The notes under the pieces were generated by a model. That model did no database searches, was not told where the DNA came from, and saw only the letters and a program-made list of their open reading frames with translations. DNA of 64,000 bases. Source: Microcoleus vaginatus WJT46-NPBG5 (GTDB lineage: Bacteria; Cyanobacteriota; Cyanobacteriia; Cyanobacteriales; Oscillatoriaceae). Numbering within the stretch: position 1 is the stretch's first letter; each line of letters opens with the position of its first letter. Positions 9,916 through 29,066 of this stretch are shown piece by piece. Made by a program: the position numbers and the translations under genes. The stretch lies in assembly GCA_019359355.1 (NCBI GenBank), contig JAHHHM010000005.1, positions 248,001 through 312,000 on the forward strand. The letters run 5' to 3'.

Positions 9916-10197
9916 TTACAGCACACCTTCTTCCAACTGCTCTAAATAAATAAATTCTGGTGCCTTAACACCAGCCTGCTTTCTTATTTCAACCAATTTA
10001 GGAGACTCAAAGAATGCTTTAGCATTAGCAAGTGATATCCATTTAGAAAAGTGGACAATCTTATTGGAGTTGTTTTCGTATTTTAAAACATGATAACTCT
10101 GCTCTCCTGCATCTTTTCTAATAGATGCAGCATCATCAAATATTTTTTTCCATGCCTCGTAGTCTTTAACTTCATGAATTATTAATACGTATTCCAT
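9916..10197 (-). CDS. Small ferredoxin-fold (ABM/EthD-like) protein
   Basis: A 93-residue protein of the dimeric alpha/beta-barrel type. The features are MEYVLIIHEVKDYEAWKKIFD at the N terminus (first strand and helix), KIVHFSKWISLANAKAFFES in the middle and a final PEFIYLEQLEE strand. Such proteins act as small monooxygenases, haem or polyketide-type ligand binders, or are of unknown function. The start ATG follows AAGAAGGGAGCC. It stands alone and is followed on the minus strand by the GNAT gene. Confidence 0.7.
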   Translation of the reverse strand: MEYVLIIHEVKDYEAWKKIFDDAASIRKDAGEQSYHVLKYENNSNKIVHFSKWISLANAKAFFESPKLVEIRKQAGVKAPEFIYLEQLEEGVL

Positions 10198-10584
10198 TCC
10201 GGCTCCCTTCTTGAGCGAAAAACATAACTATTAATTATAATAACTTTTTATGTAAAATATTTTTTTTTCAAGGGAATTTTATAAAAATCTTCTGTATATT
10301 TTCGAGAGCAACCCAAGCTTGTTATCTATGATGAGCGCTACAGTTTCTTCACATACAGAGTGTTGATAGAACGGTTCATGGAACCTCGCTCAAAGATTAG
10401 GAAATTGTTGAGAGCGGTAGAGAGCTTTACTTTACACTGCCGGCTTTGATTTTGTCGGAAACGATTATTTCTCGCTTGACGATAATTACTCGCTAAAATC
10501 TACAGCAGGGTTCTACTCATCACGACTGCCGGCAAATTCAGCCATTTTTCTGGAAACTTTCCGGATCTCAAACCGCAATTAAGA
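10198..10584. other. Non-coding stretch preceding the tandem array
   Basis: No gene was found on either strand. It is A/T-rich near the start (10235-10290), presumably the promoter of the small minus-strand gene. No array-type unit is recognisable before about 10585. Confidence 0.6.
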
Positions 10585-11480
10585 ATACAGCTAATAGATG
10601 CACCCTGATTGATGGCTCTCTGGCAACTTCGCCAGGGGCTTTTTTTTTGTTTGATAATCTCCCGGATACACCCTGTTGCTAAAGGAATACCAATAATAGA
10701 TGCACCCTGATTAATGGCTCTCTGGCAACTTTGTCAGGGGCTTTTTTTTTGTTTGATAATCTCCCGGATACACCCTGTTAGTAAAGGAATACCAATAATA
10801 GATGCACCCTGATTGATGGCTCTCTGGCAATTTCGCCAGGGGCTTTTTTTTGTTTGATAATCTTCCTGATGCGCCTAGGTGGCAGGGGAATACCAATAGT
10901 AATAGATGCACCCTGACTAATGGCTCTCTGGCAACCTTGCCAGGGGCTTTTTTTTTGCTTGATAATCTTCCTGATGCGCCTAGGTGGCAGGGGAATACCA
11001 ATAATAGATGCACCCTGATTGATGGCTCTCTGGCAATTTCGCCAGGGGCTTTTTTTTTGCTTGATAATCTTCCTGATGCGCCTAGGTGACAGGGGAATAC
11101 CAATAATAGATGCACCCTGATTGATAGCTCTCTGGCAACCTTGCCAGGGGCTTTTTTTTTGCTTGATAATCTTCCGGATACACCTTGTTACTAAAGGAAT
11201 ACCAATAATAGATGCACCCTGATTAATATGGCTCTCTGGCAACTTTGCCAGGGGCTTTTTTTTTGTTTGATAATCTCCCGGATGCGCCCTGCTACTAAAG
11301 GAATACCAATAATAGATGCACCCTGATTGATGGCTCTCTGGCAACTTTGCCAGGAGCTTTTTTTTTGCTTGATAATCTTCCGGATGCGCCTTGACCCTAG
11401 GGGAATACAATCAAAAGATGCACCCTGATTGATGTTTTCTGTTCATCCCTTGGCCTAACCGTCAGGGGATTTTTTTTTGT
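10585..11480 (+). repeat. Nine-unit 102-104 bp tandem array, each unit ending in an intrinsic terminator (candidate small-RNA array)
   Basis: The word GATGCACCCTGA starts at 10597, 10699, 10801, 10905, 11007, 11109, 11211, 11315 and 11417, giving periods of 102, 102, 104, 102, 102, 102, 104 and 102 bp. About 25 bp downstream each unit has a hairpin (CTCTGGC, 6-nt loop, GCCAGGG) followed by 8-9 T's. Units 2, 3 and 5-8 have AATAAT, a 5/6 match to a -10 box, a few bases before GATGCACC. Unit 9 has diverged in sequence but keeps a different 8-bp stem (11447-11454 with 11461-11468) and its T-run. The linkers between units come in two types. All terminators point to the plus strand, while both flanking genes are on the minus strand. 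Translation in any frame gives only repetitive nonsense. Confidence 0.9.
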
Positions 11481-11525
11481 TACTTCTTATAATAGATGCT
11501 TTTACTCTGAATAGAAAACTCAAGC

Positions 11526-11972
11526 TTATTTTTCGCACTGCTCTTTGGTGACTTTGTGCCGGTGGGAAAACATATCCTTGAGTCGCAGATCCACCCACCA
11601 TCCGAGAACGAGTTCAGCAAGCATTCCTCCTGGTAACTCGAAGTCGATGGCATCCGTCAATCTGGTTTTTCCATTTTCCTCGATAAAATGATGCCGGTGA
11701 GTCCAACTTTCCATTGGCCCTTCAATTTGCCGGTCGGTGAAAAGCCGGTTTTTTTCGCATTCCGTATGACGAGCAACCCAGCGCACGGGAATTGGCCCTA
11801 ACCAAAGACGGAATTCAGAAATAGCACCCACATCTAAACCGCCTTCGCGACGGATAATTTGAACCGGCTGCCAGGGAGGAGTGAGAAGTTGGAGAATATC
11901 GGGTCTTTCATGAAAGCCCCAAACCACTTCTACCGGCGCATCAATCAGTGAGGAATGTTTGAAGTGTAGCAT
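11526..11972 (-). CDS. SRPBCC (START-like) family protein
   Basis: A 148-residue protein of the cyclase/dehydrase or ligand-binding helix-grip fold. It opens with FKHSSLIDAPVEVVWGFHER, the usual first strand and helix, has a central GPIPVRWVARHTE strand pair and WTHRHHFIEENGKTRLTDAI, and ends with a long amphipathic helix (LGWWVDLRLKDMFSHRHK). The family binds lipids, polyketides or other hydrophobic ligands; the ligand here is unknown. It is preceded on the minus strand by a small zinc-ribbon-like gene about 65 bp away. Confidence 0.78.
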   Translation of the reverse strand: MLHFKHSSLIDAPVEVVWGFHERPDILQLLTPPWQPVQIIRREGGLDVGAISEFRLWLGPIPVRWVARHTECEKNRLFTDRQIEGPMESWTHRHHFIEENGKTRLTDAIDFELPGGMLAELVLGWWVDLRLKDMFSHRHKVTKEQCEK

Positions 11973-23368: not shown

Positions 23369-23693
23369 AACTATAAATTAAAGTTTCTGGTGGGACTGTC
23401 TAAAATGTTGTTGCGATAAACACTTAAATCTACTTTCTTTGATTGTAGACTGTGGACAACAATCCCCCCGTCTGCTGCGCCGCTATTTTTGTCTACTCAA
23501 AAAGCGCTGAGATATTTTGACTGTGCCAATTCGTTCCTTAAGCCTACCTACTTCTAGATTCTTCCCTAGCCCCTAGCCCAAGGAGTGTTGAGTGTTGAGT
23601 TTTCAGGAGTGTTGAGTTTTAAGTCCCTAACCCCATGCCCCATGCCCAATCCCCCATGCCCAATCCCCCATGCCCAATGCCCAATGCCCCTCT
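23369..23693. other. Intergenic region between helicase and TPR gene
   Basis: 325 bp with no gene. The 3' half is short tandem repeat (see next entry); the 5' half presumably contains the helicase promoter on the minus strand. Confidence 0.6.
23583..23690. repeat. STRR-type short tandem repeats
   Basis: First GAGTGTTGAGTGTTGAGT-type repeats (23583-23621), then a tract of degenerate heptamers built from CCCATGC, CCCAATC and CCCAATG (23630-23690). This is the short tandemly repeated repetitive sequence class known from many filamentous cyanobacteria. A related tract lies in frame inside the chelatase gene at 60289-60321. Confidence 0.85.
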
Positions 23694-29035: not shown

Positions 29036-29066
29036 AATCTAAAATCTAAAATCTAAAATTTAAAAA
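29036..29066. repeat. Simple A/T-rich tandem repeat
   Basis: AATCTAAAATCTAAAATCT continuing into AAAATTTAAAAA; nine-base ATCTAAAAT-type units repeated about three times just upstream of the ABC ATPase gene. Such tracts are common between cyanobacterial genes. Confidence 0.7.

Follow-up and report, generated by a model that had tools for sequence, protein, structure and literature searches.

Our study indicates that positions 10560-11478 of the window, the whole 64 000-nucleotide stretch of DNA that was analysed, probably hold nine tandem small RNA (sRNA) genes of the NsiR1 family, every one of which has a DIF1-type promoter and a terminator of its own, as part of a HetR-linked circuit with two promoter types. 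The window corresponds to C34:248001-312000 of the host genome (G000; 6.46 Mb in 44 contigs), which has one HetR and a hetF-type CHAT gene. A search for NifH in the host and in two other genomes of the genus gave scores of 220-221 bits against a cut-off of 394, leaving none above it, and the host should therefore not form nitrogen-fixing heterocysts. A 60 aa ORF upstream of hetR (L043:505-687), which ends in HRGSGRVGG and has a TCCGGA element beginning 61 bases before its start, is on this pattern likely to be patX.

The word GATGCACCCTGA occurs exactly nine times on the plus strand of the array (at 10597, 10699, 10801, 10905, 11007, 11109, 11211, 11315 and 11417), so that the words span 10597-11428, with word-to-word steps of 102 bases except for two of 104. 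When the window was shuffled with dinucleotide content preserved, a mean of 0.01 matches was obtained and nine were reached in none of 100 shuffles. Tandem Repeats Finder described the array as a period of 102 with 8.2 copies and 89 % matches, and a terminator scan of 10300-11700 returned 10 sites, compared to a shuffle mean of 1.3; nine of these supplied a stem and T-run to each unit and one lay outside the array. The original prediction of nine units at 102-104 base spacing, each with a constant word, a hairpin and a T-run, was thus borne out. It had also reported an AATAAT box in six units and weaker forms in two more, and this was likewise found, directly before the word in units 2, 3 and 5-8 and in weaker form in units 1 and 4; unit 9 has none.

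Every unit has a TCCGGA-type element 37-41 bases upstream of its word, a feature that the original prediction had overlooked. This DIF1-type element (TCCGGA with one mismatch at most) was present in 9/9 units and exact in three (units 1, 7 and 9). With the DIF1 element placed at -35, AATAAT would fall near the predicted transcript start and not at -10, and its interpretation as a -10 box was set aside in favour of the DIF1 geometry. The array RNAs are predicted to start near AGAUGCACCCUGAU and to be approximately 53-64 nt in length when counted from TAG to the end of the T-run, their 5' ends being a guess. The features of the array and of its two neighbours are listed below, with the Rfam NsiR1 score of each predicted RNA.

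10560..10565, plus strand: unit 1 DIF1 element TCCGGA (exact)
10595..10648, plus strand: unit 1 predicted NsiR1-type RNA with word at 10597, hairpin and T-run (41.1 bits; also fold and length)
10661..10666, plus strand: unit 2 DIF1-type element CCCGGA (one mismatch)
10697..10750, plus strand: unit 2 predicted RNA (39.7 bits)
10763..10768, plus strand: unit 3 DIF1-type element CCCGGA (one mismatch)
10799..10851, plus strand: unit 3 predicted RNA (40.9 bits)
10864..10869, plus strand: unit 4 DIF1-type element TCCTGA (one mismatch)
10903..10956, plus strand: unit 4 predicted RNA (39.3 bits)
10969..10974, plus strand: unit 5 DIF1-type element TCCTGA (one mismatch)
11005..11058, plus strand: unit 5 predicted RNA (40.9 bits)
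11071..11076, plus strand: unit 6 DIF1-type element TCCTGA (one mismatch)
11107..11160, plus strand: unit 6 predicted RNA (43.6 bits)
11173..11178, plus strand: unit 7 DIF1 element TCCGGA (exact)
11209..11264, plus strand: unit 7 predicted RNA (42.5 bits)
11277..11282, plus strand: unit 8 DIF1-type element CCCGGA (one mismatch)
11313..11366, plus strand: unit 8 predicted RNA (38.6 bits, slightly below the gathering score of 39)
11379..11384, plus strand: unit 9 DIF1 element TCCGGA (exact)
11415..11478, plus strand: unit 9 predicted RNA, a diverged terminal unit with its own hairpin (24.9 bits, below gathering)
9916..10197, minus strand: small ABM-domain gene, divergent from the array; its start codon and the unit 1 word are 400 bases apart
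11526..11972, minus strand: polyketide cyclase/lipid transport-like gene, convergent with the array

Folding of single units gave modest z-scores (-1.35 to -2.35), and for unit 2 an alternative fold engaging the seed was also predicted. Five units also contain a weaker second copy of the word with 2-3 mismatches (e.g. GATACACCCTGT; window positions 10665, 10767, 11177, 11281 and 11383), which sits just 3' of the DIF1 element and 34 bases ahead of the next word, and which is perhaps a relic of duplication.

The covariance model of NsiR1 (RF02399, gathering score 39 bits) matched seven of the nine units above the gathering score (39.3-43.6 bits). Besides NsiR1, no Rfam family reached its gathering score anywhere in the window and none was found at E 1 within 10300-11800. 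The original prediction had likened the layout to that of NsiR1 while seeing no sequence match; the latter statement was wrong, and the model matches together with the DIF1-type elements support the former, a multicopy sRNA locus of NsiR1 layout. It had also suggested a covariance-model search of other cyanobacterial genomes, in which RF02399 proved to be above the cut-off in 75/120 relatives from the order; at E 0.001 there was also one match in a control genome, Escherichia coli, which was below the cut-off. As predicted from their sequence, the array units have the conserved 5' region, terminator hairpin and T-run of NsiR1. The described NsiR1 locus lies upstream of hetF, antisense to its leader, whereas the array lies between the ABM-domain and polyketide cyclase-like genes. 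The array thus belongs to NsiR1 as an RNA family but does not represent the hetF locus as described. Since the host has no NifH above the cut-off, expression confined to heterocysts is unlikely here.

The view that the array does not encode protein was upheld, although not by the argument first given for it. Breaks in the reading frame had been invoked, but ORFs of 210 and 134 aa (minus strand) and 79 aa (plus strand) cross the array, and the non-coding case therefore rests on the evidence for RNA. A coding array was rejected, as the constant part is a 12-base word before a hairpin that is followed by different sequence at other loci. Ordinary sigma-70 promoters were also considered. A TTGCCA-like element followed after 17-18 bases by GATAAT occurs at eight places on the plus strand (9 sites on both strands compared to 2.1 expected); its first half falls within the terminator stem, and the pattern was therefore taken as a by-product, which is unproven.

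The word is present 18 times in the host genome: nine times in the array, three times near hetF (C43), once between gatB and argJ and four times near purD (both C24), and once on C10. The three C43 copies are upstream of hetF and antisense to it and, like the nine array copies, carry DIF1-type elements, giving 12 such copies. The five C24 copies carry instead the palindrome GGGGTnnnACCCC, in one case with a mismatch, and score no more than 34 bits with the NsiR1 model, under its gathering score. Gene names for gatB, argJ and purD in the host were assigned by NCBIfam. The predicted gatB-argJ RNA (L010:3241-3288; G000 C24:30237-30290) has a HetR-type box and scores 34 bits, below NsiR1 gathering. 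The four purD copies (L011:3400-3960; G000 C24:222.4-222.9 kb) are in tandem downstream of purD, three of them spaced 157 bases apart in identical surroundings; G001 has four similar copies and G002 two, and in these two genomes linkage to purD was assigned by likeness of the copies rather than by NCBIfam as in L011. Across the four host loci the hairpins look unrelated, whereas the 5' word is identical.

Some further observations concern the host sequence. The C10 copy (L013:1501-1512; G000 C10:22356) has no terminator, and its word is kept across three genomes of the genus (L013, L137 and L140) without a promoter motif or terminator, the 55 upstream bases being nearly identical and the downstream sequence diverged; this word is possibly a target on the opposite strand. 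Words with one mismatch in the host genome were inspected by eye in 12 of 20 cases, none of which was sRNA-like. Heptamer repeats occur in the window at 23631-23690 and 29036-29065 (CCCCATG, AATCTAA), and a CATGGGG run akin to them directly follows the gatB-argJ RNA in L010.

Within the genus, the array site holds 9, 8 and 4 units (G000, G001 and G002, respectively) between the same flanking genes. Between the three genomes, identity is 89-96 % for the first units and 86-99 % for the last, which are unlike the inner ones. Inner units have a mean identity of 0.87, 0.89 and 0.94 within genomes and of 0.84-0.89 between them; in G000 they resemble each other no more closely than they resemble those of G002, and two subtypes are each shared between genomes. 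Homogenisation of the inner units was considered but is not demonstrated by these values. Units were chosen by the exact word, and their even spacing leaves no gap for an altered unit within the three arrays; a search of the arrays with up to three mismatches revealed no extra unit, just weaker word-like stretches 34 bases before some words.

These data bear on three other accounts of the array. A decaying repeat, whether a satellite or expired NsiR1 copies, maintained by unequal crossing-over and functionless in a non-fixing host, would be in keeping with the variable copy number within the genus and with a host lacking NifH above the cut-off. We regard this as improbable, since the evenly spaced units all have the exact word in spite of variation in the spacer and the hairpin loop, 21/21 genus units keep a DIF1-type element and a terminator, and the end units are retained as distinct forms. 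The even spacing and the failure to find a further unit at up to three mismatches also speak against a decaying satellite, and the degenerate satellite in relatives that the original prediction had named as its refutation was not seen in the three genomes of the genus. It is more improbable still that the units serve a neighbouring gene as transcription punctuation or attenuators instead of being sources of trans-acting RNA. Nine consecutive terminator-like sites on one strand would suit such a role; however, the next gene (11526-11972) is on the minus strand, and the word recurs at gatB-argJ, purD and hetF with unrelated-looking hairpins, which indicates that the word and not the terminator is the conserved part. 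An action mainly in cis, with the array antisense to the leader of the divergent ABM-domain gene in the manner of NsiR1.1 on hetF, is a less remote alternative, albeit an unlikely one. The ABM gene is head to head with unit 1, its start being 395-400 bases from the unit 1 word in three genomes of the genus, and hetF and its copies share this head-to-head layout; against this, the 3-7 kb surrounding similar copies of G003, G004 and G006 showed no ABM gene, and an effect in cis would not need nine copies.

We therefore return to the reading of the array as a set of sRNA genes, for which the two promoter types were quantified across genomes. The 106 exact words of G000-G006 comprised 53 with DIF1 (up to one mismatch at the set place), 32 with the palindrome (up to one mismatch), 21 with neither and 0 with both, G007 (incomplete, 19 words) being left out of this classing. 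At random positions in the same loci, DIF1 was found in 4.8 % and the palindrome in 0.7 %. Six of the 21 unclassed sites have no T-run and 15 have one, many of the latter with a looser palindrome; the two classes thus do not cover everything.

The exact palindrome followed by the word was found in 148/388 genomes of the class, and the reversed control gave zero among the matches listed. A scan of named genomes returned at least 114 stretches, of which 80 were listed. Listed carriers include Leptolyngbya, Phormidesmis, Nodosilinea, Spirulina, Microcoleus, Okeania, Moorena and Prochloron, and, among heterocystous genera, Scytonema, Calothrix, Rivularia and Dolichospermum. The search pattern permitted a spacer of 12-35 bases between palindrome and word, yet all 134 matches in the at least 114 loci had spacers of 23-26 or 28-32 bases, 71 of them exactly 31; the 80 listed loci contributed 97 matches, with 55 at 31. 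In 42 of the 80 listed loci, gatB and/or argJ was at the expected place. RNAalifold returned no pairs for the gatB-argJ alignment, and a 10-pair stem was then given by hand. Among 39 gatB-argJ-type RNAs, 8/10 pairs of this stem had changed on both sides (shuffles 4.6) and 83 % of cells were paired, compared to 50-60 % when the stem was slid; additional pair types were not significant (58/500 shuffles). Alignment A1 comprised 38 of 61 eligible RNAs and that of the host, and alignment A2 21 of 25. Two single genomes may be mentioned. A Prochloron metagenome-assembled genome (MAG; L244) has HetR together with a box-bearing gatB-linked RNA, Prochloron being unicellular. G088 contains 31 exact 13-base words overall, and one of its loci (L307; G088 C2:1357-1363 kb) has twelve exact words with TCCGGA upstream in 4 kb.

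HetR was detected in 47/49 named carriers of palindrome and word, a set taken from 50 of the 80 listed loci with L177 left out; the two without a HetR match were Baaleninema simplex PCC 7105 and a Pseudanabaenaceae MAG. Among 100 relatives from the order, AGATGCACCCTGA was present in 59/59 HetR-positive and 12/41 HetR-negative genomes (Fisher p 6e-16, uncorrected for kinship). Eleven of these 12 HetR-negative carriers were looked at, G098 being left out. In G020, G049 and G087 the word occurs solely at sites without a terminator, while G037, G059, G077 and G093 (family f31) and G015 have DIF1-like copies; small DIF1-like tandem arrays were seen in G059, G093 and G037 (L297, L299 and L301). The remaining three, G024, G072 and G089 (L290, L292 and L293), belong to one family and have retained the RNA at gatB-argJ together with a TATACT box and a terminator, and in the 130 bases upstream of this RNA the best match to the GGGGTnnnACCCC palindrome has 3-5 mismatches. 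Of our observations, the absence of the box at gatB-argJ where HetR is missing points most directly to the box as a site of HetR, and it may represent a single event, as the three genomes are of one family.

The gatB-argJ and purD copies have a GGGnnnnnCCC palindrome at a fixed promoter place, which is a predicted HetR target. HetR binds GAGGGGTCTAACCCCTC at hetP, and structures are described as requiring GGGnnnnnCCC (PMC4192349). In the same source, none of nine predicted HetR sites gave a distinct shifted band in vitro and six gave a smear, with a band for the hetP control. This poor shifting of further predicted sites, and the two box carriers without a HetR match, would be expected if the GGGGTnnnACCCC palindrome were the site of another regulator that travels with HetR in filamentous genomes. 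We consider that doubtful, because the palindrome fits the published HetR core and spacing (PMC4192349) and because the three HetR-negative genomes of one family retain the RNA without the box. For the other promoter type, DIF1 promoters, including that of nsiR1, have been tied to heterocyst-specific expression (PMC6133370) and are reported to depend on HetZ, which HetR activates (PMC7377430). Since both promoter types precede one 5' word, HetR may raise one seed RNA by two routes.

With regard to targets, the sequence up to 1.5 kb upstream of the 30 best hetF matches contained antisense words in 20 cases and sense words in none. In Nostoc, NsiR1.1 is described as inhibiting hetF translation in antisense and NsiR1.4 as binding the start region of alr3234 (PMC9045159). 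As antisense placement upstream of hetF is common, hetF is the single likely target that can be transferred from the Nostoc case. Mutation or removal of the nsiR1.1 -10 box, however, is reported to have had little effect on hetF promoter-gfp fusions in Anabaena (PMC8406250). A search of four genomes for the exact 10-base complement CAGGGTGCAT revealed no conserved target sites near starts. There were 26 such sites outside sRNAs, of which 22 and one more were examined; G000 C34:293798 was left out and two in G003 were seen in the locus comparison. Most sites examined fall within ORFs. At L326 and L332, in different genomes, the complement is 47-50 bases before the ATG of ORFs of 405 and 132 aa that look secreted by eye, and at L318 and L346 it is near ORFs with TTG starts; none of these four sites recurred in another of the four genomes.

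NsiR1 of Nostoc/Anabaena sp. PCC 7120 has 12 tandem copies upstream of hetF, with the inner seven identical and the outer ones diverged (PMC9045159). The array resembles it in its covariance match, 5' word, terminator hairpin, tandem arrangement and DIF1-type element per copy, and in having inner units that are alike and end units that have diverged. In contrast to the Nostoc array, it does not lie at hetF, its host has no NifH above the cut-off, its inner units are not identical and one unit scores far below gathering; the host family as a whole also has a second promoter class and is spread over four loci. A 57 nt RNA of Limnospira indica PCC 8005, a cyanobacterium that forms no heterocysts, is said to resemble NsiR1 (RNA162), and its expression under gamma radiation is discussed (PMC8400943); unlike the array, it is presented as a single RNA, and the passages concerned mention no array or promoter class (PMC8400943). 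Like the HetR-box promoters of hetP and hetZ, the palindrome copies have the GGGGTnnnACCCC core, in many cases with TCA after it as at hetP, but their box precedes a predicted small RNA whose 5' word is fixed, and not a protein gene. Yfr1, another short sRNA of cyanobacteria, has a hairpin and a conserved motif that is single-stranded; it is like the array RNAs in these respects and unlike them in the motif itself. Yfr1 is single copy, and we know of no link between it and HetR.

Given the Limnospira RNA (PMC8400943) and the RF02399 matches among relatives from the order, the presence of NsiR1 outside heterocystous strains is not new by itself. The array locus appears to differ from those published in lying off hetF, in a host without NifH above the cut-off and alongside a second promoter class. 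In the open-licence literature we found no description of NsiR1 relatives with a HetR box, nor of an sRNA at gatB-argJ.

The comparisons above establish the sequence, copy number, promoter-like motifs, predicted hairpins and conservation of the family and its association with HetR. The circuit that we infer, with its transcription, HetR and HetZ control, pairing and targets, would operate as follows. The array would be one of four host loci that together supply 17 copies of one family. HetR would drive the palindrome copies (gatB-argJ and purD) directly and the DIF1 copies through HetZ, and all copies would give an identical 5' seed that reduces the translation of target mRNAs by pairing with them. 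Copies opposite the hetF leader would act in antisense, as in Nostoc, the copy number of the array would set the dose, and diverged end units could add targets. Our reading is that NsiR1 may be part of a more ancient sRNA family linked to HetR, in which a single fixed seed is served by two types of promoter. As to its history, we lean towards an ancestral HetR output that included an invariant-seed sRNA transcribed from gatB-argJ behind a pre-heterocyst HetR box, which would later have spread to purD, hetF and arrays and gained DIF1, making the Nostoc hetF array derived.

In summary, the role of hetR and patX in cyanobacteria without heterocysts has been called a mystery (PMC11298460), and an sRNA that is widespread, has a fixed seed and a HetR-type box and keeps to a narrow promoter geometry would give HetR a concrete and testable output. 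If this account is true, one seed would be fed by two promoter types, one under HetR directly and the other via HetZ, and NsiR1 would be recast from a heterocyst marker to a branch of an older filamentous-cyanobacterial regulon. The sRNA family would then constitute the main post-transcriptional arm of HetR in hosts without heterocysts.
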